A stretch of 64,000 nucleotides of DNA from Sphingomonas bacterium (GTDB lineage: Bacteria; Pseudomonadota; Alphaproteobacteria; Sphingomonadales; Sphingomonadaceae). Position 1 is the stretch's first letter, and each line of letters opens with the position of its first letter. Location of the stretch: the NCBI RefSeq assembly GCF_028289855.1, contig NZ_JAQGKZ010000105.1, positions 1 through 64,000 of the forward strand, in the 5' to 3' direction. Under the pieces are notes generated by a model. The model was not told where the DNA came from, did no database searches, and was given only the letters and a program-made list of their open reading frames with translations. The position numbers and the translations under genes were made by a program. Below are positions 3,323 through 64,000 of this stretch, piece by piece.

Positions 3323-4744
3323 ATGCCCGGCGACCTGATCTCCCACGAACCCGCGACCGGCGCCGAATTATGGCGCGGCAGCATCGGCGACGTCGATGCC
3401 GAAGTCGCGGCCGCGCGCGCGAGTTGGGCCGAATGGGCGGCCAAACCGGTTACTTTCCGCATCGAAACGCTGCGCCGCTACGCCAACGTCGTCCGCAAGC
3501 ACGCCGACGCCTTCGCCGACCTGATCGCGCGCGAAACCGGCAAGCCGTTATGGGAAGCCAAGACTGAAGTCGCGTCGGTCATCGCCAAGGTCGACATTTC
3601 TGTCGCTGCCTATTCGGAGCGCACCGGCCAGCGCCGGATGGAAGGCGACGCGGGCAGCCGCATGGCGCTGCGGCATAAGCCGCACGGCGTGCTCGCGGTG
3701 CTTGGACCGTATAATTTCCCGGCGCACTTACCCAACGGCCACATCATCCCGGCTTTGCTCGCGGGCAACGCCGTGGTGTTCAAACCGTCCGAAAAGACTC
3801 CCGCGTCGGGCGCGTTCCTGATCCAGTGCCTGCGCGAGGCTGGCGTGCCGGAGGGCTGCGCGCGCGTGCTGATCGGCGGGCCGGCGGAGGGCAAGGCACT
3901 TGCCGCGCATGACGATATCGACGGGCTGCTGTTCACCGGGTCGGCGCACACGGGCCTCGCGCTCAACCGCCAATTCGCGAGCCGCCCGGAAAAAATCCTC
4001 GCGCTAGAGATGGGCGGCAACAACCCGATCATCGTGTGGGACACGCCCGACCTCTACGCCGCCGCGGTGCTGGTGGTTCAATCCGCGTTCACCAGTGCGG
4101 GGCAGCGCTGCACGGCAGCGCGGCGGCTGATCGTCGACGAGGCGCTGTACGAGCCGCTGATGACCGAAATCGGCAAGATCGTCGACCGGCTGATTGTGGG
4201 GGGGCCGCACGACAATCCGGCGCCGTTCATGGGCCCGGTGATCGACAACCAGACTGCCGATCTACTGACCGAAAGCTTCCTCGAACTGATGATGCGTGGT
4301 GGCAAGCCGATCCGCCACCTCGAGCGGACCAACGACAATCTCCCCTTCCTGCTGCCCGGCATTCTCGACGTGACCGGTTTGAACGACCGGCCCGACATCG
4401 AATTGTTCGGCCCGATCCTGCAAGTCGTCCGCGCGCTCGATTTCGACGAGGCGATCGCCGAGGCGAACAACACCCGCTACGGCCTGTCGGCGAGCCTGAT
4501 CAGCCAGACGCCCGACCTCTACAACCGCTTCTGGGCCAACGCCCGCGCCGGGATCGTCAACTGGAACAAGCCGACCAACGGCGCCAGTTCGGGCGCGCCG
4601 TTCGGCGGCATCGGCTGGTCGGGTAACCATCGGCCCAGCGCCTATTACGCCGCCGATTATTGCGCCTATCCAGTCGTGTCGAACGAGGCCGACTCCGCGC
4701 GGGCGAGCATCGGCGTCGGGTTGCGCGAGTACGAGCCGGAATAG
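3323..4744 (+). CDS. astD: succinylglutamate-semialdehyde dehydrogenase
   Basis: AstD oxidises N-succinylglutamate 5-semialdehyde with NAD in the arginine succinyltransferase pathway. The 473 residues carry the aldehyde dehydrogenase core: GPYNFPAHLPNGHIIPALLAGN, LALEMGGNNP with the general-base Glu (about 228) and GQRCTAARR with the catalytic Cys (about 263). The C-terminus (NGASSGAPFGGIGWSGNHRPSAYYAADYCAYP) is the part that separates AstD from other aldehyde dehydrogenases. The start MPGDLISHEP at 3323 lies 11 bases after selO, suggesting co-transcription. The other ast genes (astA, astB, astE) are not in the window, so the pathway must be encoded elsewhere or the enzyme acts alone on a related semialdehyde. 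Confidence 0.92.
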   Translation: MPGDLISHEPATGAELWRGSIGDVDAEVAAARASWAEWAAKPVTFRIETLRRYANVVRKHADAFADLIARETGKPLWEAKTEVASVIAKVDISVAAYSERTGQRRMEGDAGSRMALRHKPHGVLAVLGPYNFPAHLPNGHIIPALLAGNAVVFKPSEKTPASGAFLIQCLREAGVPEGCARVLIGGPAEGKALAAHDDIDGLLFTGSAHTGLALNRQFASRPEKILALEMGGNNPIIVWDTPDLYAAAVLVVQSAFTSAGQRCTAARRLIVDEALYEPLMTEIGKIVDRLIVGGPHDNPAPFMGPVIDNQTADLLTESFLELMMRGGKPIRHLERTNDNLPFLLPGILDVTGLNDRPDIELFGPILQVVRALDFDEAIAEANNTRYGLSASLISQTPDLYNRFWANARAGIVNWNKPTNGASSGAPFGGIGWSGNHRPSAYYAADYCAYPVVSNEADSARASIGVGLREYEPE

Positions 4745-37051: not shown

Positions 37052-38227
37052 TTACAGCCGCTCGACAATCGTCACGTTGGCGATCCCGCCGCCCTCGCAC
37101 ATCGTCTGCAAGCCCCATCTCTTGTCGCGCGCCTTCAATGCGTGGAGCAAAGTCGTCATCAGCTTGGTGCCCGATGCGCCGAGCGGGTGGCCGAGCGCAA
37201 TCGCGCCGCCATTAACGTTGAGCCGGGCATGGTCGCCGCCGATCACCTTCAACCAAGCCAGCGGCACCGGCGCGAACGCTTCGTTGACTTCGTACAGGTC
37301 GATATCCTCAATCTTCATACCCGCCCGCAGCAACGCCCGCTGCGTCGCGGGGAGCGGTTCTTCGAGCATGATCACCGGGTCGCCCGCGGTCACCGTCAGA
37401 TTGTGAATCCGTGCCAGCGGGGTCAGGCCATGATCCTTGAGCGCACGCTCGCTGACGATCATCACGCCCGACGACCCGTCGCAAATCTGGCTCGCCGACG
37501 CCGCGGTCAGCACCCCGCCTTCCTGCAACAGTTTCACCGCACCGAGCGATTCCATCGAGGCATCGTAGCGGATGCCCTCGTCGGTCGTATGGAACCCCTC
37601 ATTGCCCTCTTCGTCGACGATCGCGAGCGGGACGATCTCGTCGGTGAACGCGCCGGCCTGCGTCGCCGCGGCCGCGCGCTTGTGGCTTTCGAGCGAGAAG
37701 GCGTCGAGTTCCTCGCGGCTGAAGCCGTACTTTTGCGCCATCATGCCGGCACCGACGAACTGGCTGAACCCAGGCACCCCGTAGCGGTCCTTGATCCGCT
37801 GCGAGAGCGGCCCGACGCCGATACCGAGTTGAGCGGGGGCCGTGACCGACAATCCCATCGGCACGCGAGTCATGCTCTCCACGCCCGCCGCGATGACGAT
37901 GTCCTGCGTCCCCGACATCACGGCCTGGGCGGCGAACTGGATCGCCTGTTGCGACGACCCGCATTGGCGATCGATCGACACCGCCGGCACGCTGTCCGGG
38001 AGCGATGAGGCCATCACCGCATTGCGGCCGATATGCCCGCCTTGCTCGCCGGCCTGCATCACGCAGCCCATGATGACGTCTTCGATCGCCGCGCCGTCAA
38101 TCCCCGATCGCTGCACCAGCGCGTCGAGCACCGCGCCGCCCAGATCGGCCGGATGCCAGTCCTTCAGCTTGCCGCCGCGCCGCCCGCCCGCCGTGCGCGC
38201 CGCCGCGACGATATATGCTTCCGCCAT
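37052..38227 (-). CDS. acetyl-CoA C-acyltransferase (thiolase)
   Basis: A 391-residue thiolase. The nucleophilic Cys is in SIDRQCGSSQQAIQFAAQAV (about residue 89). NEAFAPVPLAW, GGAIALGHPLGASGTKLM with the catalytic His and TMCEGGGIANVTIV with the second Cys complete the active site. Only the catalytic domains are present, as in degradative thiolases. It is upstream of the SDR and racemase on the same strand. GlcB lies divergently 148 bases away. Steroid or fatty acid beta-oxidation is a fair inference; biosynthetic acetoacetyl-CoA thiolase is the alternative. Confidence 0.93.
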   Translation of the reverse strand: MAEAYIVAAARTAGGRRGGKLKDWHPADLGGAVLDALVQRSGIDGAAIEDVIMGCVMQAGEQGGHIGRNAVMASSLPDSVPAVSIDRQCGSSQQAIQFAAQAVMSGTQDIVIAAGVESMTRVPMGLSVTAPAQLGIGVGPLSQRIKDRYGVPGFSQFVGAGMMAQKYGFSREELDAFSLESHKRAAAATQAGAFTDEIVPLAIVDEEGNEGFHTTDEGIRYDASMESLGAVKLLQEGGVLTAASASQICDGSSGVMIVSERALKDHGLTPLARIHNLTVTAGDPVIMLEEPLPATQRALLRAGMKIEDIDLYEVNEAFAPVPLAWLKVIGGDHARLNVNGGAIALGHPLGASGTKLMTTLLHALKARDKRWGLQTMCEGGGIANVTIVERL

Positions 38228-38375
38228 CCAGCCTCTCCTTTATTTGAGTTGCAGATAGCCACCGGTTGACGGAAGCGGCAAGCGAATTTGCGGGGTGGAC
38301 GGCGGCACCGGTCGGTGTATTGGCACGGTTCCTCCCCGCTCAAGCTGAATGGAGTTGCGCGTGTCTGGAGGTCTC

Positions 38376-40454
38376 ATGATCGATCGCTGCGGATTGCAGG
38401 TCGCGAGCGAGCTCGCTGCGTTCATCGAGGAACGCGCGCTGCCGGGCACGGGCATCGGGGCGGATGCGTTCTGGGCGGGCACTGCCAACATCTTCGCGCA
38501 GTTCGCGCCGGAAAATCGGAAGCTGCTCGACAAGCGCGACTTGCTTCAGGCCGAGATCGACGGCTGGCACGCCCAGCGCACCGGCACCGCAATCGATCAG
38601 GCCGAGTATCAAGCGTTCCTGAGGTCGATCGGTTATCTGGTCGACGAACCTGTGCCGTTCGCCATCACCACCGAGAACGTCGATCCGGAGATCGCAACGA
38701 CCGCCGGGCCGCAACTCGTCGTGCCGGTGCTAAACGCCCGCTTCGCGCTCAACGCCGCCAATGCGCGTTGGGGCAGCCTGTACGACGCGCTCTACGGCAC
38801 AGACGCTATCCCCGGCACAGCTAGGCCGGGCGGCTACGACCCGGTGCGTGGCGCGCAGGTGATCGCCTGGGCGAAGTCGTTTCTCGATTCGGCGGTGCCG
38901 CTGGCGAGCGGAAGCTGGGCCGATTTGACCGGCGCGCCGGTACTGGCCGACCCGGCGTTGCTGGTAGGGCGCGCGCAGGAAAGCTACCTGTTCCGTCACA
39001 ACGGCTTGCACATCGAAGTGGTGATCGATCGCGAGCATCCGATCGGCAAGACCGACCCAGCCGGCATTGCTGACGTCATCCTCGAAAGCGCGCTTACGAC
39101 GATCGTCGACCTTGAGGATTCGATTGCCGCCGTCGATGCCGAGGACAAGGTCGCGGCTTATGCCAACTGGCTCGGCTTGATGAAGGGCGACCTGGTCGAG
39201 ACGTTTGATAAAAACGGCGCGACTCTCACGCGCAAACTCAACGACGACCGCGTCTACACCACCCCCGACGGCAGCACCTTCACCCTGCCCGGTCGCGCGC
39301 TGATGTTCGTGCGCAACGTCGGTCACTTGATGGCCACGCCCGCGATCCGCCTGCCCGATGGCGGCGAGGCGCCCGAGGGCATTCTCGACGCGATCGTCAC
39401 CAGCCTGATCGGCTTGCACGACATCAACGGCGCGCGGAAAAACAGTCGCGCGGGATCGATCTACATCGTCAAACCCAAGATGCACGGGCCCGAAGAAGCC
39501 GCGTTCACCAATGCGCTGTTCGACGCGGTCGAAGATCTGCTCGGCCTCGCCCGTCACACGATCAAGGTCGGTGTGATGGATGAGGAGCGCCGTACCTCCG
39601 CCAACCTTGCCGCCTGCATCGCGGCGGTCAGCGGCCGGATCGCGTTCATCAACACCGGCTTCCTCGACCGCACCGGCGATGAAATTCACACGGGTATGCA
39701 GGCGGGGCCGATGGTGCCCAAGGGCGAGATGAAGACGAGCGCCTGGATCGCTGCGTACGAGAACCGCAACGTCCAGATCGGGCTCGCCTGCGGGCTGTCG
39801 GGCAAGGCGCAGATCGGCAAGGGAATGTGGGCCGCGCCCGACCGCATGGCGGATATGCTCGACCAGAAGATCGGCCACCCGATGACGGGCGCCAACACCG
39901 CCTGGGTGCCCAGCCCCACCGCGGCGACGCTGCACGCGACGCACTACCACCGCGTGGACGTGTTCGCACGGCAGAAGGAGCGCGCATCCGAGCCGATCGC
40001 ATCGCTCGATGCCCTACTGTCGGTCCCGCTCGCGCTCGGCCGCAACTGGACCCCTGACGAAATCCGCGCAGAGCTCGATAATAATGCGCAGGGCATTCTG
40101 GGCTACGTCGTTCGCTGGATCGATCAGGGCGTGGGTTGCTCGAAAGTGCCCGACATCCACGATATCGGGCTGATGGAGGACCGCGCAACGCTGCGCATCT
40201 CGAGCCAGGCGCTGGCCAATTGGTTGCTCCACGGCGTCTGCGCGCCCGAAGAGATCGAAGCGGCGTTCGCGCGGATGGCGGCGAAGGTCGATGCGCAGAA
40301 TGCCGGCGATCCGCTGTATGGCTCGCTCGTCGCCAACCCCAACGGTGCCGCCTATCGCGCCGCCCGCGCGCTGGTGTTCGAGGGAACGGCGCAGCCCAAC
40401 GGCTATACCGAGCCCCTGCTCCACCGCTTCCGCGCCGAGGCGAAGGCGCGCTAA
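38376..40454 (+). CDS. glcB: malate synthase G
   Basis: Condenses glyoxylate with acetyl-CoA to malate. The 692 residues fit the G isoform. Motifs: [104 protein letters not shown] and [12 protein letters not shown]. The ATG at 38376 has GGAGG at ideal spacing and gives the conserved N-terminus [16 protein letters not shown]; the track start 38349 is nine codons earlier. It lets the cell grow on two-carbon compounds or fatty acids. The gene is alone on its strand and divergent from the thiolase. Confidence 0.95.
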
Positions 40455-50979: not shown

Positions 50980-51261
50980 ATGACCAGCGACATCGAAACC
51001 GTCCGCCTCCGTATGGAAGCCGCCGCGCAAGCGCTCGATTTCGAGCAAGCCAAACGCCTGCGCGACCAGCTCAATCTGATCCGCGGCGGCGCGAGTTTGG
51101 CCGAAGCCGAAGCGAGCGACACGTCCGACCTGACGCGTCAGCAGCCGGGTAAGATGGGTCTGGGCACCAGCCAGCAGCGAATGACGCCACCCGAAGGTTG
51201 GAAGCCGCCGCCCAAGCCCGATTCGATGACCACAGGGAATGGCGGCAAACGCCGCCGCTAA
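50980..51261 (+). CDS. UvrB/UvrC (UVR) motif protein
   Basis: A 93-residue protein whose first 35 residues are a UVR motif: ETVRLRMEAAAQALDFEQAKRLRDQLNLIRGG. This helical hairpin mediates UvrB-UvrC contact in the excinuclease. The remainder is polar and Pro/Gly-rich. Stand-alone UVR proteins are adaptors, for example in protein quality control (McsA) or unknown complexes, so a repair role is only a possibility. The stop CTAA is shared with the convergent flavoprotein gene. Confidence 0.85.
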   Translation: MTSDIETVRLRMEAAAQALDFEQAKRLRDQLNLIRGGASLAEAEASDTSDLTRQQPGKMGLGTSQQRMTPPEGWKPPPKPDSMTTGNGGKRRR

Positions 51262-52418
51262 ACCCGCTGCGCCCCCGCGGCGCGCACCGCGTCAAGCGTC
51301 GGCATCCCGTTGACCGCCATCATCAGGTCCGCCTCGGCCAGAATGCACTTGAGCACGTGCGCCGCGCCTGCCGCGCCATCGAGCGCCAATCCATAAGCGA
51401 ACGGCCGCCCCACCCCGACCGCCTGCGCGCCAAGCGCCAGCGCCTTGATGACGTCGCTGCCCGACCGGATGCCACTGTCGAACCACACCGGCGTGCTACC
51501 CGCCCCCTTCACCACGCCGGGGAGCATGTCGATCGCGGCGATGCCGCCATTGGCCTGGCGCCCGCCATGGTTCGAGCAGAACAGCACGTCGGCACCATGA
51601 TCGACTGCTTTCCGCGCGTCGTCCGGATGGCAGATGCCCTTGAGCACGATCGGCAACTCGGTGACCGACTTGAGCCACGCCATGTCGTCCCAGGTCAGCG
51701 GTCGGGCGAATTGCGACGCCCATAGCATCGTGGCTTCGGCGGGCGCCGTCGCCGGGTCCTTGCCGAACATCTTTTTGAACACCGGATCGGCGAAATAATT
51801 GGCCAAAACGTGCCCGCGGAGCTGCGGGAAATTGCCGGCGTTGAGGTCGCGCGGGCGCCAGCCGGTGACCCAAGTGTCGAGCGTGACCACCAGCGCACGA
51901 TACCCCGCCGCTTCGGCGCGGCGGATCAGGCTTTCGGCGAGATCCTTGTCGCGCGGGGTGTAGAGCTGGAAGAAGCCGGGCACGTCGCCGAGGTGCTTCG
52001 CGACGTCCTCCATCGTGTCGTTGCCGAGCGTCGAGACGGTCATCGGCACGCCGCTCATCGCCGATGCCTGCGCCGCCGCGACGTCACCGTGCTGGTCGGG
52101 GGTGCAGATGCCGGTGACGCCGATCGGGCTCATGAAGATCGGGCTGTGATAGGTGTGGCCGAACAAAGTGGTCGACAGATCGCGACTTGTCGTGCCGACC
52201 ATCATCCGCGGGATCATGCCCCAGTGGCGGAACGCGGCGGCATTCTGGTCCTGCGTCCATTCGTCGCCGCAGCCGCCCTGGACGTAATTGAGCACGTGCG
52301 GCGGCATCGCGGCGGTCGCGCGCTGGACGAGCGTCGCGTAATCGACCGGGAGCTTGGGGAGCACGCCGCGCAAGCCCGCGCCGTAGATCTCGTTCTGATA
52401 GTCGCCGAAATGCCCCAT
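51258..52418 (-). CDS. FMN-dependent alpha-hydroxy acid oxidase (lactate 2-monooxygenase type)
   Basis: A 386-residue flavoprotein of the glycolate/lactate oxidase family. Motifs: PPHVLNYVQGGCGDEWTQDQNAAAFRHW, MSPIGVTGICTPDQHGDVAAAQASAMSGVPM, FQLYTPRDKD, LKGICHPDDARKAVDHGADVLFCSNHGGRQANGGIAAID with the active-site His, and GIRSGSDVIKALALGAQAVGVGRPFAYG. The N-terminus MGHFGDYQNEIYGAGLRGVLPKLPVDY is that of lactate 2-monooxygenases. The start 52418 is preferred to 52481. It oxidises an L-2-hydroxy acid; which one is not evident. Confidence 0.9.
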   Translation of the reverse strand: MGHFGDYQNEIYGAGLRGVLPKLPVDYATLVQRATAAMPPHVLNYVQGGCGDEWTQDQNAAAFRHWGMIPRMMVGTTSRDLSTTLFGHTYHSPIFMSPIGVTGICTPDQHGDVAAAQASAMSGVPMTVSTLGNDTMEDVAKHLGDVPGFFQLYTPRDKDLAESLIRRAEAAGYRALVVTLDTWVTGWRPRDLNAGNFPQLRGHVLANYFADPVFKKMFGKDPATAPAEATMLWASQFARPLTWDDMAWLKSVTELPIVLKGICHPDDARKAVDHGADVLFCSNHGGRQANGGIAAIDMLPGVVKGAGSTPVWFDSGIRSGSDVIKALALGAQAVGVGRPFAYGLALDGAAGAAHVLKCILAEADLMMAVNGMPTLDAVRAAGAQRV

Positions 52419-52491
52419 TGCTCTCTCCGTCGATGCGTTGGGCGGATTATGGCCGATCGAACCGACCGTGTCTCGCGCCAACGCGCCGCGG

Positions 52492-53166
52492 TCAGTCGCG
52501 CCGGAGGCGGACGAAGATGTTGGTGGTCAGCCGCCCGGCACGCGGATCGGAATCGAGAATCGCGTCCGGCGGAATGATCCCCGAATGGAGCAGCGCGCCG
52601 GGATAGATGGCGAGCCGGTCGCGTCGCCCCTCGATCCGCCCGATCTCCTCGTAATGCGCGTTCGACCCCTGAACATAGCCGGCCATCGTCGCCGCCGCGC
52701 GCTTCGCGTGATCGACGAACGTGCCTTGGTTACGGGCATCGACGCGCTCGATCCCGGTGGCGCGCTGGCGGAAGAATGCCGTGCCCGGCGTGTCGGTCAG
52801 GTAGTGCATCACCGCGAGATGATCGGGGTCGGTCGAATCGAAATGCGGCGCGCGCTGGGCAGGGTCGAGCGAGCCGGGCGGCGTCGTGACGATCGAGAAG
52901 CTCGCCTCGATCAGGTCGAACCCATCGGCGTCGAACGCACCGCCGATGAACGGCGCGGAGATTTCCAGCAGGTGCTCGACATAGGCATTCGCGCGGGCGT
53001 CGGGCGCGATCGGCTGGCGGAGCCCGGGATAGTAATTGCCCGCGCTCGGCGGAAACGGCGCCATCGCCGCGGCCAGCGCGACCGCCGCGCCGGGGGCGCC
53101 CGTGACGTCATCGATGACGACGACCGGGATTTGCGCGTCGCCGATGTGGCGCAGTTCGGGTGTCAT
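52492..53166 (-). CDS. DUF6445 family protein (2-oxoglutarate-oxygenase-like)
   Basis: A 224-residue protein of the DUF6445 family. PHFDSTDPDHLAVMHYLTDTPGTAFFRQRATG has the H-x-D of a double-stranded beta-helix iron site, and RDRLAIYPGALLHSGIIP holds a second His. This is the arrangement of Fe(II)/2-oxoglutarate oxygenases, although activity has not to my knowledge been shown. In sphingomonads such genes often accompany TonB-dependent receptor loci. It lies 73 bases upstream of the flavoprotein on the same strand. Confidence 0.78.
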   Translation of the reverse strand: MTPELRHIGDAQIPVVVIDDVTGAPGAAVALAAAMAPFPPSAGNYYPGLRQPIAPDARANAYVEHLLEISAPFIGGAFDADGFDLIEASFSIVTTPPGSLDPAQRAPHFDSTDPDHLAVMHYLTDTPGTAFFRQRATGIERVDARNQGTFVDHAKRAAATMAGYVQGSNAHYEEIGRIEGRRDRLAIYPGALLHSGIIPPDAILDSDPRAGRLTTNIFVRLRRD

Positions 53167-53545: not shown

Positions 53546-53595
53546 CTACATTGGTGGTGTGAGAGTCGCGGGTTCATATCCCACCGTCCCGCCCA
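53546..53595 (+). other. tRNA-like 3' half (possible tRNA remnant)
   Basis: CTACA-TTGGTGG-TGTGA looks like an anticodon arm with loop anticodon GGT. GAGTC is a variable loop, GCGGG-TTCATAT-CCCAC a T arm, CGTCCCG an acceptor strand, then C and CCA. The spacing is exactly that of a tRNA 3' half. No matching 5' half (CGGGACG at the right distance) exists, and the T loop lacks the conserved A58. It is therefore not a normal tRNA; it may be a remnant or attachment site. Confidence 0.35.
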
Positions 53596-53732: not shown

Positions 53733-55019
53733 ATGCTGGTTACGGGAATGCTACACGGATCGCGGCTGCTGCGGCATGTCGGCTTTCCCACGCCCGAGAT
53801 ACTCGGGCCCGACGCTAGCGAAGCGGCAATCCAAGCGCTGATCGCGAAGCACAAGTTCGTTTTCGTCAAGCCGGTGTTCAAGGGCGGCGTAGGCAAGAAG
53901 GGTAAGGCCGGATTGATCGGCAGGGCGACCAGTCTGCGCGAAGCGCTAGCGGAGAAGGAAAGACTCTATTTCGCCGAGCATCGCCACGGCAATGCGGTCG
54001 CCAAGGCCAACGGCGTTACCTTCGAAGCCGGCGTGCCGGCCGAACACGAAGTGTATTTCTCGATCACTGATTCGACCGAATATCGCGCCCCGACCATGAC
54101 GCTGACGCATCGCGGTGGCGTCGATATTGAGGAACTCGACCCGTCGGAGATCGCGCATGTACCATTCGACGCGCTGACCGGGCTCAAGGCTTTCGTCGTC
54201 GCCAATGCGTTGACCGATATCGGCGCGCCGCGCAACATCATCTCGCCGCTCGTCCAGCAACTGCCCAAGCTGTGGGACCTGGTTCACCATTACGGCATGA
54301 CCACATTGGAGCTCAATCCGATCCGGATGCGGCCCGACCGCAGCGGACGGCTGACCCCAGTGGCGTGCGATTTCAAATGCGGCTTCGACCGCGACGATCA
54401 CCGCGTCGCGCGGTTCGACCTGCCGGCCGATTTGTTCACCGCCGACACGTCGGACTTCGAACGCGAGGTCAACGAGTTGCGCACGCACCAGGGCCAGTCC
54501 GATGTGTTCGTGATTAACGACCGCGGAACGATCCTCGCGCCGACCTTCGGCGGTGGCGCGAATTCGCTGGTGACGGAATTGCTCGGCGACGCCGCGATCA
54601 TCTCGTCGGACTTCGGCGGCAACCCGCCCTATGAGAAAATGAAGTCGGTGGCGCGAATTTGCTACCGCCACTGGCTGAAACAATCGAACGTGCTGTTCAT
54701 CGTCGGCGGCAAATCGAACAACACCGATATCTACGAGACCTTCCGTGCGATGGGCGATGCGTTGCGCGAGCATTTCAGCGCACATGGCCCATCGCCGCTT
54801 TACGTCGTGGTCGGACGCGGTGGCCCCAAACTGGTGCGCGGCATGGGCGCGCTAGCGGAGGCGTGCGACGGGCTTGGGATCCCGTACCGCCAGTTCGGCT
54901 TTGACAGCGCGATGTCCGAAGTGGTGCTCTACGCGCGCAACGTCGATGCGTGGATGAAGGCCGGCGGACGAGCGGAGATCGCCGCGCGCATGGGCCTCAA
55001 CAAAGCGGAGGCGGCGTAA
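53733..55019 (+). CDS. ATP-citrate-lyase beta-like subunit (ATP-grasp, AclB-like)
   Basis: A 428-residue protein like AclB or the N-terminal part of human ACLY. Residues 1-240 are a succinyl-CoA-synthetase-type ATP-grasp: LHGSRLLRHVGFPTPE, KFVFVKPVFKGGVGKKGKAGL and TTLELNPIRMRPD. Residues 250-420 match the citrate-binding domain of ACLY: NVLFIVGGKSNNTDIYETFRAMGDALREH and VVVGRGGPKLVRGMGALAEACDGLGIP. The ligand loop reads GGKSNNTD where ACLY has GGSIANFTN, one residue shorter, so the acid bound may not be citrate. The start at 53733 is uncertain by five codons. It overlaps the large subunit by one base. Confidence 0.75.
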   Translation: MLVTGMLHGSRLLRHVGFPTPEILGPDASEAAIQALIAKHKFVFVKPVFKGGVGKKGKAGLIGRATSLREALAEKERLYFAEHRHGNAVAKANGVTFEAGVPAEHEVYFSITDSTEYRAPTMTLTHRGGVDIEELDPSEIAHVPFDALTGLKAFVVANALTDIGAPRNIISPLVQQLPKLWDLVHHYGMTTLELNPIRMRPDRSGRLTPVACDFKCGFDRDDHRVARFDLPADLFTADTSDFEREVNELRTHQGQSDVFVINDRGTILAPTFGGGANSLVTELLGDAAIISSDFGGNPPYEKMKSVARICYRHWLKQSNVLFIVGGKSNNTDIYETFRAMGDALREHFSAHGPSPLYVVVGRGGPKLVRGMGALAEACDGLGIPYRQFGFDSAMSEVVLYARNVDAWMKAGGRAEIAARMGLNKAEAA

Positions 55020-57730
55020 TGCGCGAGCGGCTGGCCGGCCTGCCCTATCATCTCGGCGTCCCCTCGCTCGGCGATGTCGCGACGCGCGCCGATCGGGTGT
55101 GCGTGCTCAACATCATGGGCGGAGAATCGAGCCAGGTGACCCCGGTTTGCCACGCCTTTTCGGGGGGCAACATCGCGTTCGGCACCTCACCCGGTCGAAA
55201 GGGGCAATCCCTGAAAACCGCGATCGGCGACATTCCTGTCTTCAACAATGTTCGCGAAGGACTCGACGCCGGTCACGCCTTCAACACCGGTGTCGTCTAC
55301 CTTCCTCCGAGCGGCGTACGCGACGGCGTGACCGAATTGGTAAGGGTCAATCCCGCGCTCGAAAAGATCGTGATCATCACCGAAAAGGTATCGGTCCACG
55401 ACGCGCGCGAGGTCCGGGCGATCGCGCAGGCCGCCGGCGTCGACATCTTCGGCGGCAATTGCCTGGGCATGGCCGACAGCTGGAACCGCGTGCGGATCGG
55501 CGGTGCGCTGGGCGGCGACCATCCCGACGAGGTCCTGCTGAAAGGCTCGATCGCGATCTTCTCCAATTCGGGCGGTTTCACCACGACGATCGCGCAATAT
55601 CTGGCGACAGAAGGCTGGGGCACGACTACGCTGATCTCTTCGGGCAAGGACGTCTATATCCACTATTCAGCGCGCGACTTCGCGATCGGGTTCAAGGCCG
55701 ACGATCGCTCGCAGGCGGCGGTGCTCTATGTCGAGCCGGGCGGCTATTACGAACACGGCGTCGATTTCGGCAAACCGGTGGTTGCGTGCGTGGTCGGACG
55801 GTGGAAGTCGCGACTGACGCGGGCGGTGGGACATGCCGGCGCGCTGGCCGGGTCGGGTGACAATGCCGAGGCCAAGGAACGCTGGTTCATGGACGCGTTC
55901 GGCGTCGATGCGCCGTTCACGATCGATAACCCGATATGTTCGGCCAAGGGTGCGCTCGTCACCAACATTGCCGATATTCCCGTCGCGCTGTCCGCGGTGA
56001 TGCGGCTGAACGGCATCGGGCCCGATTTCACTCCGCGCGGCGACTTGTCGCTAAAGCCCTGGCTTGCGAACGATCAGGGGCTGGCGCTGCCGTCGCATCT
56101 CGCGCTCCCCACGGTACGCGCGATCGAACCCTACGATACCCAGATCGCGGCGCTCGGCCGCCAGATCGGCAAGGTCATTCCGCGGCAGACGATGAAGGAC
56201 AAATCGGGCGCGAGCGTGATGGACGCGAAGACGCAGGTGACCAGCGTCCATCGCCATTCGGTACTCGATCTCGCACTGCAGCCGCTCGAAGCGAACTTCG
56301 CGCTGCCGCTGGTTCACGATATCGCCAACGCCGACGACCGCGCGATGCTCGATGTCGCGGTGGCGGCCGAAATGAACCTGGTCGGCGATCCCGCACTGAT
56401 GGCGGCGGATGCCGCGCGTGCTGCGGGGAATTCGCCCAACACGATCATGGCCGCCGCTGCTGCCATCGTCGGACCCAAGCGAGTCGAGCGCGCGCTCGCT
56501 TGCAGCAAGGCATTGATCGATCTGTTTGCACGGTCGGGCCTCGGCGATGCGCGCGACGAAGCGTTCGATCTGTCGACCATCCACATCGACGATGCGAATC
56601 GCGCCTTGTTTCTCGCCACACCCGATGAAGCCGCGGATCCGCGCCCCGAGGCGATGCTCGCAGCGGTGCGCGCGCGCGGCGGACGATCGGTCTTCCTGCG
56701 CTTCCTCGATCAGCTCGACGGCCGTCCTTCGCGAGATGCGGTGCTCGCGGCGATCGCCACGACGATCGCCTGGGTGCCGTTGATGCAAAAGCGCATCTCG
56801 CGGCTCACCGCGGAGACGCTACCCTGGTATCTGCGGCTTTACGGCGTGATGATCGGCGCATCGATCCCCGGCGAGCACCATCAGCCGGGCATGCTCCACG
56901 GCGTGTCGCGCGAAGAGCGGTTCAACAACTGGACGATGGCCGATTTCCTGTTCCTCGCTATTACCGGACGGCGCCCCGAAGGCGACATGGCGCGGCCGTT
57001 GCAGATCCTGGTCGGGTTGTTGATCTCCAATGGCCCCGGCGCGATCAGCGCGCAGGGCGCCAAGGGCGCCGTCGCCGCCGACGGCCCGCAATCGCCCGAG
57101 CGAGTCCAGATCAACAAGGCGATGATCGGGTTTCTCAGCCATTCCGGCTACAGCCATGGTGGCAACGGGTATGAAGGGATCGCTTTCCTGCTCGATACCT
57201 TCCGGGATGTCGGGCTGACCGATCCCGCCGACCCGAACCATGGACTCGACCTGCGCGCGATGGCGACGGCGTTCGCAACGCGCTATGCCGCCAAGCGCCG
57301 CGACGCCAAGGAGGGCGGCACCGCCGAGCCCCGTGCGCTACCCGGGATCAATCATCCGGTGTTTCGCGGCGAAGCCGTCAACCACGATCCGCGCGAGCGC
57401 TTCCTGGCCGGACTGATGGCGGAGCGCGGCGAGTATAACGTGTTCCACGCTTATTATCGCGAGCTCGTTCAGGCGCTGCACGACGTCGGCGCGACGCGGA
57501 ACGTCTTCTGCGTCAATATCGACGCGGTGATCGCGGCACTACTGCTCGGCCTGCTTTGGCGCGATCACAGCGAGGGGCGGCTGGCCGATTCCGCACTCGA
57601 GACCGCCGCGTTCAACATCTTCCTCTACGGCCGGATGATCGGTGCGGCAGCGGAGATCGACGATCACCTTAACCGCGGGCGTAACATGGATACACGCACG
57701 CCGGCGGATCAATGCGGGTTCGTAGTGTGA
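55019..57730 (+). CDS. ATP-citrate-lyase alpha-like subunit with extra middle region (CoA ligase plus citrate-synthase-like lyase)
   Basis: A 903-residue protein. Residues 1-310 are a SucD/AclA-type CoA ligase: SIAIFSNSGGFTTTIAQYL and the phosphohistidine motif AVGHAGALAGSGDN (His about 272). Residues about 590-903 are citrate-synthase-like: SGYSHGGNGYEG (about 711), LPGINHPVFRGEAVNHDPRERF (about 775) and CVNIDAVIAALLLGLL (about 834) correspond to citrate synthase His274, His320 and Asp375. The stretch equivalent to the ACLY sequence ADHGPAVSGAH reads SNGPGAISAQG, without the His. The middle (about 320-590) has no counterpart in usual AclA of about 610 residues. The pair would cleave a citrate-like acyl-CoA at the cost of ATP. 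Confidence 0.72.
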   Translation: MRERLAGLPYHLGVPSLGDVATRADRVCVLNIMGGESSQVTPVCHAFSGGNIAFGTSPGRKGQSLKTAIGDIPVFNNVREGLDAGHAFNTGVVYLPPSGVRDGVTELVRVNPALEKIVIITEKVSVHDAREVRAIAQAAGVDIFGGNCLGMADSWNRVRIGGALGGDHPDEVLLKGSIAIFSNSGGFTTTIAQYLATEGWGTTTLISSGKDVYIHYSARDFAIGFKADDRSQAAVLYVEPGGYYEHGVDFGKPVVACVVGRWKSRLTRAVGHAGALAGSGDNAEAKERWFMDAFGVDAPFTIDNPICSAKGALVTNIADIPVALSAVMRLNGIGPDFTPRGDLSLKPWLANDQGLALPSHLALPTVRAIEPYDTQIAALGRQIGKVIPRQTMKDKSGASVMDAKTQVTSVHRHSVLDLALQPLEANFALPLVHDIANADDRAMLDVAVAAEMNLVGDPALMAADAARAAGNSPNTIMAAAAAIVGPKRVERALACSKALIDLFARSGLGDARDEAFDLSTIHIDDANRALFLATPDEAADPRPEAMLAAVRARGGRSVFLRFLDQLDGRPSRDAVLAAIATTIAWVPLMQKRISRLTAETLPWYLRLYGVMIGASIPGEHHQPGMLHGVSREERFNNWTMADFLFLAITGRRPEGDMARPLQILVGLLISNGPGAISAQGAKGAVAADGPQSPERVQINKAMIGFLSHSGYSHGGNGYEGIAFLLDTFRDVGLTDPADPNHGLDLRAMATAFATRYAAKRRDAKEGGTAEPRALPGINHPVFRGEAVNHDPRERFLAGLMAERGEYNVFHAYYRELVQALHDVGATRNVFCVNIDAVIAALLLGLLWRDHSEGRLADSALETAAFNIFLYGRMIGAAAEIDDHLNRGRNMDTRTPADQCGFVV

Positions 57731-58438: not shown

Positions 58439-59338
58439 TCAAAGCGCCCGATAGGGGCCGCGAGCGACGATCGCCCGCGCCCGGTCACTTCGAACAAACG
58501 CCAGCCAAGCTCCCACCGCGGCGCGTTGCCTGTCGCTGGCGTACGCGATCACTCGCCGATCGAGCGGGTAAGCGGCATCGCCGGGCACGCTACGCCTGCC
58601 GGCATCGACGATCGCGACGATCCGGGTTCCGGCGAGCGGCCTTGCGTCGCCGACACCCAGCGCCGCTGGATCGGCTGCGACGGCATCCGCGATGGCCGCG
58701 CCGAACCGATCGACATGACTTGGCGGCAAAAGGGGTTCAGTCACTTCGCGCGCGCGCGACCAATCCAACTGAGTCGCATCGGCGAGCAGCGCCTTGCGCA
58801 TGTACTGCCCCGTGCCGCTCTCCATGTCGGGTACGACCAGCCTGATCGTGCGCGACGCGAGCGGCCCGGCGACGCCGACCGATCCCCAGCTCGGCGGCGC
58901 GCCGCCGATCCGGAATGCCGCTGTGAGCTGCGCCAGCGAAATCTCTCGTAACGGATTGCTCGCATTTACACGAACCGCCAGCGCGGGCGAGCTTCCAGGT
59001 GTCGCGATACTGCCGAGCATGACCGGGATCGCGACGGGAGGGCGGCGGAACACCCATTCATACGCCTTGATCTCCGGATCGCTGGCGTCGCGCCCGATCA
59101 CGGCGATGTCGGCACGGCCGGTCGACAATCGCGCCATCGCGACGTCGCTGCCCACGGCATCGATCCGTATCACCGCCCCCGGATGGTCGATGCGATACGC
59201 TGCGGCCATCGCGTTCAACGTCGGCGCCAGTTGCGCTGTCGTGGCGATTTCGACGATCGCGCCGTCGCGCTCCGGCGGGGCGATTTGTGCCGCGGCGGGC
59301 GCGGCCAGGGCCAGCAGGACGAGGCGCCAGATCTTCAT
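58439..59338 (-). CDS. PstS-like periplasmic substrate-binding protein (1)
   Basis: A 299-residue exported binding protein with signal peptide MKIWRLVLLALAAPAAAQ. The fold of phosphate-type solute-binding proteins is suggested by VEIATTAQLAPTLNAMAAAYRIDHPGAVIRIDAVGSDVAMARLSTGRADIAVIGRD and NPLREISLAQLTAAF. It is the last gene of the cluster and the most diverged, lacking the WGHG motif of two of the others. The ATG overlaps the previous stop by four bases. The 114 bases after it hold no gene. The ligand is unknown. Confidence 0.78.
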   Translation of the reverse strand: MKIWRLVLLALAAPAAAQIAPPERDGAIVEIATTAQLAPTLNAMAAAYRIDHPGAVIRIDAVGSDVAMARLSTGRADIAVIGRDASDPEIKAYEWVFRRPPVAIPVMLGSIATPGSSPALAVRVNASNPLREISLAQLTAAFRIGGAPPSWGSVGVAGPLASRTIRLVVPDMESGTGQYMRKALLADATQLDWSRAREVTEPLLPPSHVDRFGAAIADAVAADPAALGVGDARPLAGTRIVAIVDAGRRSVPGDAAYPLDRRVIAYASDRQRAAVGAWLAFVRSDRARAIVARGPYRAL

Positions 59339-60417
59339 TTCAGCTTGTCCAGTTCGCGCAGCAAGGTCGCCCGGTCGAGCGGAAGATATCCGCTGTCCTG
59401 AACCAGCGCGGTCTGCCCTTCGCGGCTGAGGATATACCGCAGAAACTCGCGCTCGACCGGTGGCATCGGCTTGCCCGGCGCGCGATCGACGAACGCGGGG
59501 ATGATGCGGCCGAGCGGATAGCGCCGATCGATCAACGTCTCGTCGCTCGCTGTGACGAAGCCGCGCTTGGCGTCCCAGGCGATGGGTAGTGCCTTCACCT
59601 CGGAATTGGCGAAAACGACGCTGGAAATGGCGATGCCGTAGGGGTCTTTTGCCAGTGCCTCGAGAATGAGCTGGCCGTGTTGGACGACGGTCCCGTCGGG
59701 TCGAGTCACCGGCATAAATTCGCGCGCGGCGGGGTTCCAGCGGTGGCTGCCGCACAGCACGCGCTCGCGGAAGAACAGTGCGAAATCGACATCGGTCTTC
59801 CACGCATAGGGCGTGATCGGTCGCCGCGCCCAATCCCCGGTCAGCCCCAGTTCACTCCAAGTGCGGATGTTGCGAGCGGTGCAGCGATGCTCCGCGCCGA
59901 ACACCGCCTCGAGCTGGCGGATCGTCAATTTGGCCAGCGGGTTGGCTTTGTTGACGAAAATCATGTGCGCATAGTCGAAATAATTGGTCGCGACGCTGCC
60001 GTTGGCGATCTCGATCTTGGTCGGCGGATAGCCGTGCGCGCGTATAAACATGCGCTCCGCCGCAGGGCTGATCTCCTCTCCGAGAATTGCGAGCGTGCCC
60101 GCGCCGTCGGTCAGCGCGCCGATCGCCGATGCGGTGCCGTACATCCGATAGTCGAGCACGACGCCGGGCTGGCCACGCTGGAATTCTGAAAACCAGCGCC
60201 GCACGAGGTCGCCGACGAAGTCGTGCTTGGGACTGCCATGCCCCCAGATGCGGATCGTGCCGGTGACCTTGGGGCCGGCGACATACGGCGGCAACGTGGC
60301 CAGCGTTCGCGTCGCGATCAGCGAAGGCGGTGGCCCTTCCGCGAGCGGCGCGGCCTTCGGCGGGCTGGCCATTGCGCCAATCGACAACAAGGCGCCGAGC
60401 AGGATCAATCGTTTCAT
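59335..60417 (-). CDS. PstS-like periplasmic substrate-binding protein (2)
   Basis: A 360-residue paralogue with signal peptide MKRLILLGALLSIGAMASPP. Core: GTIRIWGHGSPKHDFVGDLVRRWFSEFQRGQPGVVLDYRMYGTASAIGALTDGAGTLAILGEE and FDYAHMIFVNKANPLAKLTIRQLEAVFGAEHRCTARNIRTWSELGLTG. It ends in a domain with FLRYILSREGQTALVQDSGYLPL, the shared C-terminal signature of all five paralogues. It is most like protein 4 (61385), from which it may have duplicated. ATGA-type overlaps on both sides. Confidence 0.82.
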   Translation of the reverse strand: MKRLILLGALLSIGAMASPPKAAPLAEGPPPSLIATRTLATLPPYVAGPKVTGTIRIWGHGSPKHDFVGDLVRRWFSEFQRGQPGVVLDYRMYGTASAIGALTDGAGTLAILGEEISPAAERMFIRAHGYPPTKIEIANGSVATNYFDYAHMIFVNKANPLAKLTIRQLEAVFGAEHRCTARNIRTWSELGLTGDWARRPITPYAWKTDVDFALFFRERVLCGSHRWNPAAREFMPVTRPDGTVVQHGQLILEALAKDPYGIAISSVVFANSEVKALPIAWDAKRGFVTASDETLIDRRYPLGRIIPAFVDRAPGKPMPPVEREFLRYILSREGQTALVQDSGYLPLDRATLLRELDKLK

Positions 60418-61388
60418 CGGTCACCGTCCACGATGCGGCGTTGGTCGGCGGCGATGGCCGATGTCAGCGGCAGGTAGCCGCGATCCTGCGCGAGCAGGCC
60501 CTGCCCCTCGTCCGACAGAACAAAGCGGAGGAAGTCCGCAACGCGCCGGTCGAGCGTGGTGCCCGGCTTGCGCGCGAAGAACGCGTAGGCGCGGCGCGCG
60601 AGCGGATAGCGGCGCGCAACGATCGTGTCCGTGGAGGGCAGGATCGCCGGATCGGCACCATCCTTCAGCGGCACGACGCGCAGTCCATCGACCGCCTGGC
60701 CCGGATTGGCGATCGCCAGCGCATAGCGGTCGCCTCGCGCCGCGGCACCCGCACGATCGGCAGCGTAGTCGATCGTGCCGTCGAGCCGCCGCGCGTCGCC
60801 ATATTCGGTGATCCGGTCCCAGCACATCCGGCGGCTGCCCCTGGCGATCCGGTCCTGCAGCCACGCGCCGGTGCGGCTGGCGAAGTCATACGCATCGACA
60901 CGGATCGGCTTGGCGGCCCATTCGCCGGTCAGGCCGAGCTGGCCCCATGTGCGGATCGGTTTTGTCGCGCCGGCGCAATCGATGATCGCCGCGAGTTGTT
61001 GTAATGACAATTGTCTGAGCGGGTTCGCCGCATCGACCAGCACGGCGATCGCATCAGACTTGCCCGGCACCGACACGCTGCCGTTGGCGATCTCAATCCG
61101 CGTCGCGTCATATTCCATCGGCCGCGAGAAACCGTTGTCGTCGACCGCATCGTTGGCGCGTCCCATGAAGGCCAGATCGGCGACCCCGCCGGTCAGTCCA
61201 TGGATCGCGCTGTCGGAACCCTTCATCGCGAATTCGAACCGCGCATCGGGGTGAAGACGGCGATAGGCCTCGGCCCAGCGCTCGGCGATCCCGAGCATCG
61301 CCGGATTGCCCCAGATGCGGATCGGCTTGTCCTGTGCGGCGCACGGCCACGCCAGCATCAGCGCGGCGAGGGCTAGCAGGACCCTCAT
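60414..61388 (-). CDS. PstS-like periplasmic substrate-binding protein (3)
   Basis: A 324-residue paralogue with signal peptide MRVLLALAALMLAWPCAAQ. Core: PIRIWGNPAMLGIAERWAEAYRRLHPDARFEFAMKGSDSAIHGLTGGVADLAFMGR, then NPLRQLSLQQLAAIIDCAGATKPIRTWGQLGLTGEW and FLRFVLSDEGQGLLAQDRGYLPLTSAI. The KGSDSAIHGL loop corresponds to the ligand loop of phosphate-binding proteins, although the classical TGSG is absent. Start 61388 was chosen for the signal peptide; the track start (62048) is a shadow of protein 4. Confidence 0.82.
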   Translation of the reverse strand: MRVLLALAALMLAWPCAAQDKPIRIWGNPAMLGIAERWAEAYRRLHPDARFEFAMKGSDSAIHGLTGGVADLAFMGRANDAVDDNGFSRPMEYDATRIEIANGSVSVPGKSDAIAVLVDAANPLRQLSLQQLAAIIDCAGATKPIRTWGQLGLTGEWAAKPIRVDAYDFASRTGAWLQDRIARGSRRMCWDRITEYGDARRLDGTIDYAADRAGAAARGDRYALAIANPGQAVDGLRVVPLKDGADPAILPSTDTIVARRYPLARRAYAFFARKPGTTLDRRVADFLRFVLSDEGQGLLAQDRGYLPLTSAIAADQRRIVDGDR

Positions 61389-62488
61389 GCGATGATCCGC
61401 CGTTGTTGTTCGGCCATCGCGGGCGACAGTGGCAGATAACGCCCGTCGCGATTGACCGCCTGCTGCCCTTCCCGGCTGAGAATGTAGCGCAGGAACTCGC
61501 GCACTTTCGGGTCGATGCGCCCGTCGGGCGGTCGGTCGATCACCGCGGGCAGCGTACGCGCGAGCGGATAGCTCTGGTCGATCAGCGTCGTATCGCTCGC
61601 CGCGACGAACGGCCCCGCCGACATCACCGCCAACGGCAGCGCCTTCACCATCGGCCCGGCATAGCGGATATTCGATACCGCGATTCCCACCGGATCCTTG
61701 GCCAGCGCATCGAGGATTTGCTGCCCGTGGTCGTAGATGCGCCCGTCGGGATAAATGATGTGCGCATATTCGCGCAGCGCCGAGTTCCAGCGATGGCTGC
61801 CCATGAGCACGGCATTTCGCAGGTAGAAGCCGAAACTGTCGTCGATCGCCCAGCTGTACGGCACGATCGCGCGCTTCGCCCACCCGCCCGTCAGCCCTAG
61901 CTCGCCCCACGACCGCACGTTGCGCGTGCCGCGGCGATGTTCGGTGCCCAGGATCGCGTCGAGATCGGTCAGCGACAGGCGCGTGATCGGGTTGTCGCGG
62001 TGGACGAACACCATCTGCGCATAGTCGAAATTGCGCACGTCCATGCATCCGGTCATCAACTGGATGCCGGTCGGGGCATAGCCCTTGACCCGCTCGAACG
62101 CCTTGGCCGCATCGGGCAGGATTTCCTCGCCAAGGATCGCGATATCGCCGAGCCCATTGTACAGCGCCGGAATTCCCGACGAGGTACCGTAGAGATCATA
62201 TTCGAGCGACGCGCCGGGATGAAAGCGCGTGAAGTCCGCCCCCCATTGGTCGGTCAGATAGTGCATCCACGGCAGCTTACGGTTGCCGTGACCCCATAGC
62301 CGGATCGCGCCCGATACCGATTGCTCGGGCACGTAGCGCGGCATCGCCGCCGCGGCGCGTGCCGCCGGGCTGCCCGGAACGGCTGGACGTGGATCGATCT
62401 TCTGGTCGGCGGGCGTTAGGCGCTGGGCATAAGCGGGCCAGGCGAGCAACGCCGCGGTTCCACCGATGAAGGCGCGCCGCGCGATCAT
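61385..62488 (-). CDS. PstS-like periplasmic substrate-binding protein (4)
   Basis: A 367-residue paralogue. The N-terminus MIARRAFIGGTAALLAWPAYAQ has a twin-arginine-like RRAFIGG motif, so export may be via Tat. Core: GAIRLWGHGNRKLPWMHYLTDQWGADFTRFHPGASLEYDLYGTSSGIPALYNGLGDIAILGEE and RLSLTDLDAILGTEHRRGTRNVRSWGELGLTGGW, ending FLRYILSREGQQAVNRDGRYLPLSPAM. It overlaps protein 3 and the PepSY gene by four bases each. Proteins 2 and 4 share WGHG and GDIAILGEE-type motifs and form a pair. Confidence 0.84.
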   Translation of the reverse strand: MIARRAFIGGTAALLAWPAYAQRLTPADQKIDPRPAVPGSPAARAAAAMPRYVPEQSVSGAIRLWGHGNRKLPWMHYLTDQWGADFTRFHPGASLEYDLYGTSSGIPALYNGLGDIAILGEEILPDAAKAFERVKGYAPTGIQLMTGCMDVRNFDYAQMVFVHRDNPITRLSLTDLDAILGTEHRRGTRNVRSWGELGLTGGWAKRAIVPYSWAIDDSFGFYLRNAVLMGSHRWNSALREYAHIIYPDGRIYDHGQQILDALAKDPVGIAVSNIRYAGPMVKALPLAVMSAGPFVAASDTTLIDQSYPLARTLPAVIDRPPDGRIDPKVREFLRYILSREGQQAVNRDGRYLPLSPAMAEQQRRIIA

Positions 62489-63576
62489 GCGATTGCCCGC
62501 CCGGCACGCACACGCCGCTTGCGAAACCAGGTAATCGCTCCGGTGACGGCAAGGGTAGGCAGCGCGAGTCCCGCCAGCATCACGAGCAGTCGCCCGACCA
62601 CGCCGCCGACATCGCCAGTGTGCACCGAATAGATCGCGTCGGTCAGCCGGTTGGCGAGCGGCCCGCTGCGCGAATCATAGGCATCGACGATCGCGCCGTT
62701 CGCCGGATCGATCGCCAGTGTCGAAGTTCCTGCCCAGCGGCGACTGTCATCGGGCTGCAGCAGCCGAAAGAAATAGACCGGCGACTTGGCCGACGGCAGC
62801 GCGATGCGCACCAGCGTCGATCCGGGGAAACGCGTGCGCGCAACCGTATAGGCCTGTTCGGCCGACAGGCGGATTGCCGGCGGGCGGTCCTGCGATTTGG
62901 CTTTGTAAGCTGGACGATACCCCGCAGTCGATGCGAGCACGGCGCGCAATTGCGGCGCGAAGGCGAGATAGATGCCGGCGCTGACCATCACGAGCAGCGC
63001 GGGCACCGCGACGATGCCGACCAGCCGGTGCCAGCCCATCAGGCGCGCGCGCTCGGCGGGCAGCCGCGTCATGCGCGCCGCTGCGCGCCATTTCGCAAAC
63101 CAGCCGGCGTTCCACAAACCGATCAACAGCGACGCGAACAGGAACGACCCCGACGTGCCGACGATCAACAACCCCGAATCGCCGAGCAGCAGCGATTCGT
63201 GCAGCCGCAACAGCCAGCCCCAGGCCGCGCCGCCCGCCGGCAGCATTCCCCCGGGGTCACGGCGGTCGAGCACCGCGCCATTGCGGCCGTCGATCACCAA
63301 GGTTTGTTCGCCCTGCGCGCCTTGGTAGTAAGCGAGCAGCAGCATGGGATTGGGGCCGAAGCTTTCCAGCTTGGTCACCTTCGCGCCCGCCGCCGCGCTC
63401 GACCGGGCAATGAGCTTATCGAGCGGCACCAGGCGCGCGCCGCCCGGACGCGCCAATGCCGCATCCTGCAGGTCGCGGTTGAACACGAGGGTTGCGCCGC
63501 TGAGCCCTTGCAACGCCCAAAAGATGCCGAGCGCGATACCGAGCCACGTATGGACGCGGAGGAGTTGACGCTTCAC
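62485..63576 (-). CDS. PepSY-associated transmembrane protein
   Basis: A 363-residue inner-membrane protein with about four helices: VHTWLGIALGIFWALQGLSGATLVF, SGLLIVGTSGSFLFASLLIGLW, GWHRLVGIVAVPALLVMVSAGIYLAF and GRLLVMLAGLALPTLAVTGAITWFRKRR. Periplasmic PepSY regions follow helix 1 and helix 3. Such proteins accompany TonB-dependent receptors and metal or siderophore uptake, some acting as ferric reductases; HTW and LHES-type His could bind heme. The start is GTG at 63576 with GGGGG upstream; the track start 63633 lies in the upstream gene. Confidence 0.85.
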   Translation of the reverse strand: MKRQLLRVHTWLGIALGIFWALQGLSGATLVFNRDLQDAALARPGGARLVPLDKLIARSSAAAGAKVTKLESFGPNPMLLLAYYQGAQGEQTLVIDGRNGAVLDRRDPGGMLPAGGAAWGWLLRLHESLLLGDSGLLIVGTSGSFLFASLLIGLWNAGWFAKWRAAARMTRLPAERARLMGWHRLVGIVAVPALLVMVSAGIYLAFAPQLRAVLASTAGYRPAYKAKSQDRPPAIRLSAEQAYTVARTRFPGSTLVRIALPSAKSPVYFFRLLQPDDSRRWAGTSTLAIDPANGAIVDAYDSRSGPLANRLTDAIYSVHTGDVGGVVGRLLVMLAGLALPTLAVTGAITWFRKRRVRAGRAIA

Positions 63577-63595
63577 GATCAGCCCCCGGTCATGT

Positions 63596-64000
63596 TCATT
63601 TGTCGCTGTCGATCTTGCGGCGCTCGGCCGCAATCAATGCCGCGGTCAGCGGCAGCATCGTCGTATCACGATTGACCTCTTCCTGCGCCTCGCGGCTCAG
63701 GATGAAGCGCAGGAACTCGCGCACCCCGGGCGGCAGCTTCCCGTCCGCGCCGCGATTGGCGTAGAACCACATATTGTCGGTGAGCGGATAGCTATGGTCG
63801 CGCACCGCATCGATGCTCGCCGCGATGGTCCGACCGTCGGCCAGCCGGATCGGCATCGCGCGCGTGTTCGGGTCGATCCCGCGCAATGGCGCGAAATAGG
63901 CGATCGCCGCGCGGTTGCGGCCCAGCGCCTCGGCCATTTGCTGGTCGACGCTCACCAGCTTGCCGTCGCCGGTCGCGCTGATCGTGAATTGCCGCAAATG
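63596..64000 (-). CDS. PstS-like periplasmic substrate-binding protein (5), partial (5' end outside window)
   Basis: The C-terminal 135 codons of a fifth paralogue. The reading frame is open to the window edge; the track start is a TTG at 63997 that is almost certainly internal. It shows the shared end FLRFILSREAQEEVNRDTTMLPLTAALIAAERR and the domain feature DHSYPLTDNMWFYANRGADGKLPPGVREFL. It is 19 bases upstream of the PepSY gene. The signal peptide and ligand loop lie outside. Confidence 0.82.
   Translation of the reverse strand, partial: HLRQFTISATGDGKLVSVDQQMAEALGRNRAAIAYFAPLRGIDPNTRAMPIRLADGRTIAASIDAVRDHSYPLTDNMWFYANRGADGKLPPGVREFLRFILSREAQEEVNRDTTMLPLTAALIAAERRKIDSDK

Follow-up and report, generated by a model that had tools for sequence, protein, structure and literature searches.

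What does a two-gene locus encode when it resembles ATP-citrate lyase (ACL) but its large subunit runs to 903 residues, against 617 in Chlorobium AclA (6hxj_B)? The locus lies at positions 53733-57730, on the + strand, of a 64,000-nucleotide stretch of Sphingomonas bacterium contig NZ_JAQGKZ010000105.1, which we call the window. An initial annotation, made from the sequence alone, had the open reading frames (ORFs), their coordinates, and their strand right, together with the ATP-grasp and citrate-binding domains of the small subunit and, in the large subunit, its length, its phosphohistidine GHAGA ligase domain, and its lyase residues matching citrate synthase His274, His320, and Asp375. It left the middle of the large subunit unexplained and proposed either a different acid substrate or a new branch of ACL. 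Here, we find that the pair encodes a ligase like those of citryl-CoA synthetase (CCS) and ACL, fused to a domain like citryl-CoA lyase (CCL), and that it is likely a type II ACL with a dead second lyase domain, serving citrate breakdown in heterotrophs. The features of the pair are listed below.

53733-55019, + strand: small subunit, AclB/CcsA-like, 428 residues, with ATP-grasp and citrate-binding domain (Pfam, PDB, and a 90-sequence alignment)
54705-54728, + strand: acid-binding loop GGKSNNTD, small-subunit residues 325-332, with N329 and T331 aligned with ACLY N346 and T348
54816-54818, + strand: small-subunit R362, aligned with ACLY R379 (citrate carboxylate), 90/90 in the alignment
55019-57730, + strand: large subunit, CcsB - pseudo-CCL - CCL fusion, 903 residues
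55019-55948, + strand: large-subunit residues 1-310, CoA-binding and phosphohistidine ligase domain (6hxq_A match)
55832-55834, + strand: H272 of GHAGA, predicted phosphohistidine (73/73)
55949-56155, + strand: linker, large-subunit residues 311-379, partly of low confidence (AlphaFold 2 predicted local distance difference test, pLDDT, <50 at 343-351 and 366-372)
56156-56878, + strand: predicted degenerate CCL domain (pseudo-CCL), residues 380-620 (HHalign with controls; AlphaFold 2 and Foldseek)
56879-57727, + strand: predicted active CCL domain, residues 621-903 (HHalign against CCL, 3.1e-11; catalytic residues invariant)
57155-57157, + strand: H713, equivalent of citrate synthase His274
57353-57355, + strand: H779, equivalent of citrate synthase His320
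57521-57523, + strand: D835, equivalent of citrate synthase Asp375

Ligase, lyase, and pseudo-lyase domains

The last base of the small gene's TAA is also the A of the large gene's ATG (TAATG, 55017-55021), a one-base overlap, and translation of both is therefore probably coupled. The large subunit is a single open frame that can be extended upstream, with the ATG at 55019 as its natural start. Pfam finds ATP-grasp_2 (PF08442, 9.7e-15) and Citrate_bind (PF16114, 1.4e-12) in the small subunit and Succ_CoA_lig and CoA_binding in the large one, where NCBIfam adds succinate-CoA ligase alpha at 25-297 and a weak citryl-CoA lyase match at 625-843 (4e-05). The best PDB match of the small subunit is 6hxq_B, the large subunit of Hydrogenobacter CCS (1.7e-28), and that of the ligase part of the large subunit is 6hxq_A, the CCS small subunit (1.1e-31; profile 1.3e-44), these matches standing well ahead of ATP-citrate lyases for both subunits in the PDB sequence search.

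Across alignments of 90 small-subunit sequences and 73 large-subunit family members, H272, H713, H779, and D835 are invariant (73/73), as are G325, G326, K327, N329, N330, T331, and D332 of the acid loop (90/90), while residue 328 is S in 67 sequences and A in 23. N329, N330, T331, and R362, also invariant in 90/90, align with N346, F347, T348, and R379 of ACLY, the citrate contacts of the human enzyme. The acid loop does differ from that of ACLY, as the initial annotation remarked, but the oddity disappears beside Hydrogenobacter CCS, which has GGTANNTR, and the loop looks CCS-like rather than new. Likewise, SNGPGAISAQG (residues 670-680) was correctly read as replacing ADHGPAVSGAH of ACLY but is not distinctive, since genuine CCLs may lack ADHG (one from another Pseudomonadota genome has IDAGIAPPS). 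Together, the small subunit would bind ATP and citrate, which we infer to be the substrate; the ligase half of the large subunit would carry the phosphoryl group on His272 and make citryl-CoA; and the C-terminal lyase domain, with H713, H779, and D835, would split citryl-CoA into acetyl-CoA and oxaloacetate.

The extra part of the large subunit, put at about 270 residues in the initial annotation, comes to about 310, made up of a linker of about 70 residues (311-379) and a domain of about 240 (380-620). A direct profile search of this middle region, as had been advised, gave no match in Pfam, NCBIfam, or PDB profiles, but HHalign did: the middle segment matches the stand-alone citryl-CoA lyase profile (P 2.1e-6 over 180 columns, score 48.5) and its own C-terminal lyase domain (8.3e-9 over 126 columns, score 64.1), the segments being nearly separate (380-622 and 620-903). 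The best scores of 60 column-shuffled profiles were 17.7 and 23.1, respectively, and neither reversed profiles nor the N-terminal domain gave a match. The C-terminal domain itself matches the citryl-CoA lyase profile at 3.1e-11.

Structure prediction, carried out on the large subunit, points the same way. An AlphaFold model of residues 372-622 alone (mean pLDDT 83.5, predicted template modeling score 0.82) found Hydrogenobacter citryl-CoA lyase 6hxp as its best Foldseek match among 350,542 PDB chains, and the first 32 matches were all citryl-CoA lyases or ATP-citrate lyases, with weak E values (best, 5.5e-3), TM-scores of 0.41-0.57, and probabilities of 0.82-1.00. On a full-length model of this subunit (mean pLDDT 79), ACL chains align over about 655 or about 920 columns, as would be expected if their single lyase domain falls on either the middle or the C-terminal copy.

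In the 73 sequences, the middle copy has R, E, or another residue at the His274 position, never H, and histidine is likewise absent from the positions that align around His320; the Asp position is D in 53 of 57 heterotroph rows and 5 of 16 autotroph rows. Thus, residues 380-620, as modeled, form a second citryl-CoA lyase domain, which is complete, keeps the fold, and has lost both catalytic histidines, which makes it a pseudo-lyase, and which removes "unexplained" from the description of the middle region. Moreover, R389, K393, and D394 of this copy are invariant, suggesting that the pseudo-domain does something. Since the citrate-synthase family works as dimers, the simplest idea is that it pairs with the active copy, and by this analogy it probably plays a structural part, filling the position that a second subunit has next to the active domain in ordinary lyase dimers. 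A further step, which we put forward tentatively and with somewhat more doubt than belief, is that the dead and active copies form a lyase dimer within a single large subunit, so that each chain has one lyase site and the enzyme assembles differently from type I ACL with its tetrameric core; in heterotrophs, it would be a dedicated catabolic citrate splitter for plant- or environment-derived tricarboxylates. No description of the pseudo-domain was found in the searched open literature.

Family membership and distribution

Type II ACL was proposed by Hugler and Sievert (2011), as cited in PMC3522073 and PMC6315080, which describe it from tubeworm symbionts and certain Chromatiaceae. In Magnetococcus MC-1 it corresponds to Mmc1_3638/3639, and citrate cleavage was detected there at the level of the organism without other citrate-cleaving genes (PMC6783814). 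Both window subunits are homologous over their full length to type II ACL genes, in a comparison that used Magnetococcales and Sedimenticola sequences: the large subunit is 55% identical to that of a Magnetococcales metagenome-assembled genome, 58% to that of Sedimenticola, and 57% to that of a further locus, L078, and the small subunit is 66-70% identical to Magnetococcales and Sedimenticola sequences. The type II primers acl2F1/acl2R1 (PMC3522073) translate to VAKEEWF and NGFEAIA; L078 has LAKEEWF and NGFEAIA, and the window protein has EAKERWF (284-290) and NGYEGIA (716-722), a match at the protein level only, with 5-6 mismatches in the window DNA. At the Sedimenticola locus, the gene after next downstream resembles monomeric isocitrate dehydrogenase and heterodisulfide-reductase-like genes lie upstream, both assigned by eye, in keeping with a reductive tricarboxylic acid (rTCA) cluster.

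The pair does not have the marks of type I ACL (AclA of about 610 residues, one lyase domain, ligase closest to AclA/ACLY) and falls below the NCBIfam cut-offs for succinyl-CoA synthetase (alpha, 111 bits against 336; beta, 59.5 against 370). By homology, then, it belongs to an already known kind: the branch that the initial annotation saw is distinct, but it is not new, having been named type II ACL (PMC3522073, PMC6315080, PMC6783814).

The family is no chance assembly: scanning 85,462 species genomes gave homologues of 55-81% identity at 68 loci of alpha-, beta-, and gammaproteobacteria, almost all of them full length unless cut short by a contig end. The matches span the whole 900 residues apart from a few broken or edge-cut genes, and no variant lacking the middle region turned up among them. 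Whole-genome searches at E <= 1e-30 found the family in 40 of 399 Pseudomonadota genomes, one of which (G001) has only a short ligase-type match and carries separate CCS and CCL genes. Planctomycetes intermediates have been reported (PMC5459899).

The suggested phylogeny was run as a tree within the family and has three clades: Magnetococcales-type sequences and Sedimenticola (16 rows); Burkholderiaceae, Comamonadaceae, and Microvirga (19 rows); and a clade with the window pair (38 rows) that includes Paracoccaceae, Roseobacteraceae, Halomonas, Variovorax, Azohydromonas, Sinorhizobium, and others. The taxonomic scatter within these clades implies horizontal transfer, and the same is suggested by how patchily the family occurs, in 1 of 201 genomes of the window's order and 3 of 385 of its class. 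Base composition, also considered as a sign of transfer, shows none, with a GC content of 0.63-0.66 over the pair, little different from its surroundings. The tree sister of the window pair is a Polymorphobacter plasmid pair, which is immediately preceded by a two-component system and has a 2-hydroxycarboxylate transporter in its vicinity.

Two further loci were observed. On Paracoccus denitrificans plasmid NZ_CP141053.1, positions 4001-4627 match the large subunit over residues 569-777 and no further (57% identity), and probably represent a decayed copy. In G001 (contig C7, 4594-6450), an unfused CCS small-subunit-like gene is followed directly by a stand-alone citryl-CoA lyase gene, and this locus adjoins genes resembling nuo genes.

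Gene neighborhoods and metabolic role

The two non-autotroph clades provide 56 loci with enough flank, a set that includes close relatives and hence does not amount to 56 independent events; 45 of these loci have at least one tricarboxylate gene (TcuC, TctA/B/C, TcuA/B, or PrpF). None of 10 control stretches taken from the same plasmids has such a gene, nor does any of 8 autotroph loci. In many Burkholderiaceae, the genes directly downstream of the pair encode a symporter of the TcuC family (760 bits, against a cut-off of 445) and an SBP_bac_11 protein of the periplasm; the latter may be an aconitate isomerase, a guess by analogy with the Pseudomonas enzyme. Other loci have TctA/TctB/TctC, a TctD-like response regulator and kinase, PrpF, TcuA, and TcuB. 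For example, the Gemmobacter pair has TcuA, TcuB, TctA, TctC, and 4-oxalomesaconate tautomerase annotated alongside. Because of these neighborhoods, the most likely role in the window bacterium and its heterotrophic relatives is to break down citrate, whether imported as such or derived from aconitate or tricarballylate, and not to fix CO2: aconitate and tricarballylate would be turned into citrate, and this by the pair's enzyme into acetyl-CoA and oxaloacetate. This catabolic context of type II ACL was not found described in the searched open literature.

The window pair itself stands alone, with no rTCA cluster nearby. Upstream, on the - strand, lie a gene for a flavin mononucleotide-dependent 2-hydroxyacid dehydrogenase and a DUF6445 gene (51261-53166); downstream come a short unassigned gene and then phosphate-binding-like genes. 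A sequence like a tRNA 3' end at 53571-53595 (+ strand), just upstream of the pair, was considered as an integration-site mark and rejected: the assembly holds no second copy at <=2 mismatches, Rfam gives no match, and ARAGORN makes no call. Other features of the window are listed here.

37055-38227, - strand: thiolase, on the opposite strand to malate synthase G
38349-40451, + strand: malate synthase G
58439-62488, - strand: tandem run of phosphate-binding-like (PF12849) genes, at least three with a Pfam match; a fourth ORF, 60414-62048, looks alike
62488-63633: PepSY_TM gene after the phosphate-binding-like run

Several points weigh against a catabolic type II ACL in the window bacterium: no tricarboxylate transporter lies near its pair, no TctC family protein (PF03401) is found in its genome, the neighborhood control is limited to ten stretches on four plasmids, the searched open literature gave no biochemistry of the family, and one POR_N protein in the genome leaves some room for a reductive role. 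An rTCA role has indeed been proposed for the family in Magnetococcus and tubeworm symbionts (PMC6783814, PMC6315080), and together with the POR_N protein this could speak for CO2 fixation in the window genome as well. We regard this as highly improbable, since the genome encodes citrate synthase and has no RuBisCO match, hence no sign of another autotrophic pathway either, the locus has no rTCA cluster, and a single genome among the 201 of the order carries the pair. Still less probable is a middle domain of another fold with an independent regulatory or catalytic function. Its empty Pfam and NCBIfam searches, moderate TM-scores over the top 32 matches, and lack of any Foldseek match at E <= 0.001 would fit such a domain, but two independent methods agree on the citryl-CoA lyase fold, HHalign scoring well above its best shuffled controls and the top 32 PDB matches all being citryl-CoA lyases or ATP-citrate lyases.

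More room, though not much, is left for a shift of the heterotrophic clades to another acid (2-methylcitrate, isocitrate, homocitrate, or a tricarballylate-derived acid) with other acyl-CoA products, akin to the methylcitrate-like substrate of the initial annotation, for which we found no support. The loop GGKSNNTD, set against GGSIANFTN of ACLY, and PrpF-family genes at 8 of the 56 loci favor it, PrpF also occurring in the methylcitrate cycle according to PMC5690661. However, the N/N/T/D set and R362 are identical in autotroph and heterotroph clades (90/90), CCS has NNT too, and the lyase catalytic residues are intact; TcuA/TcuB/TcuC neighbors lead to cis-aconitate and thence to citrate; PrpF-type genes are the only methylcitrate-cycle genes among the annotated neighbors; and MC-1, with homologous genes, cleaves citrate (PMC6783814). 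The shift is therefore unlikely, and citrate remains the substrate that we favor.

ACL is used as a marker for CO2 fixation by the reverse TCA cycle. Since type II relatives are mostly found in heterotrophs, beside uptake genes for citrate, aconitate, and tricarballylate, the presence of the pair in a genome is not by itself proof of autotrophy or carbon fixation. The family is nearly unannotated, its members being called CoA-binding or hypothetical proteins and their lyase part being missed by Pfam, and the dead second lyase domain offers a concrete, testable idea of how it differs from the medically targeted ACL.

Comparison with known systems

Succinyl-CoA synthetase shares the ligase fold and the GHAGA phosphohistidine motif but is without a lyase domain, and the window pair scores far below its NCBIfam cut-offs and below the pair's own CCS match. 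With type I ACL (AclA/AclB, ACLY), the pair has in common the overall reaction logic, the domain types, and the citrate N/T/R residues, whereas type I has a single lyase domain in an AclA of about 610 residues, and the ligase half of the window protein scores 42.6 bits for Chlorobium AclA against 112.9 for CCS. Hydrogenobacter CCS/CCL provides the best PDB match for each ligase half (6hxq) and shares the NNT acid loop and the lyase fold (6hxp), but the window protein joins the ligase and two lyase copies in a single polypeptide. Type II ACL, as in Magnetococcus MC-1 (Mmc1_3638/3639), the Riftia/Tevnia and Lamellibrachia symbionts, and Thioflavicoccus, has the same two-gene arrangement and shares the large subunit of about 900 residues including the pseudo-domain, with 55-58% full-length identity and the primer motifs; in contrast to it, the window pair belongs to a separate clade of the tree, and its relatives adjoin tricarboxylate uptake genes, not rTCA genes.

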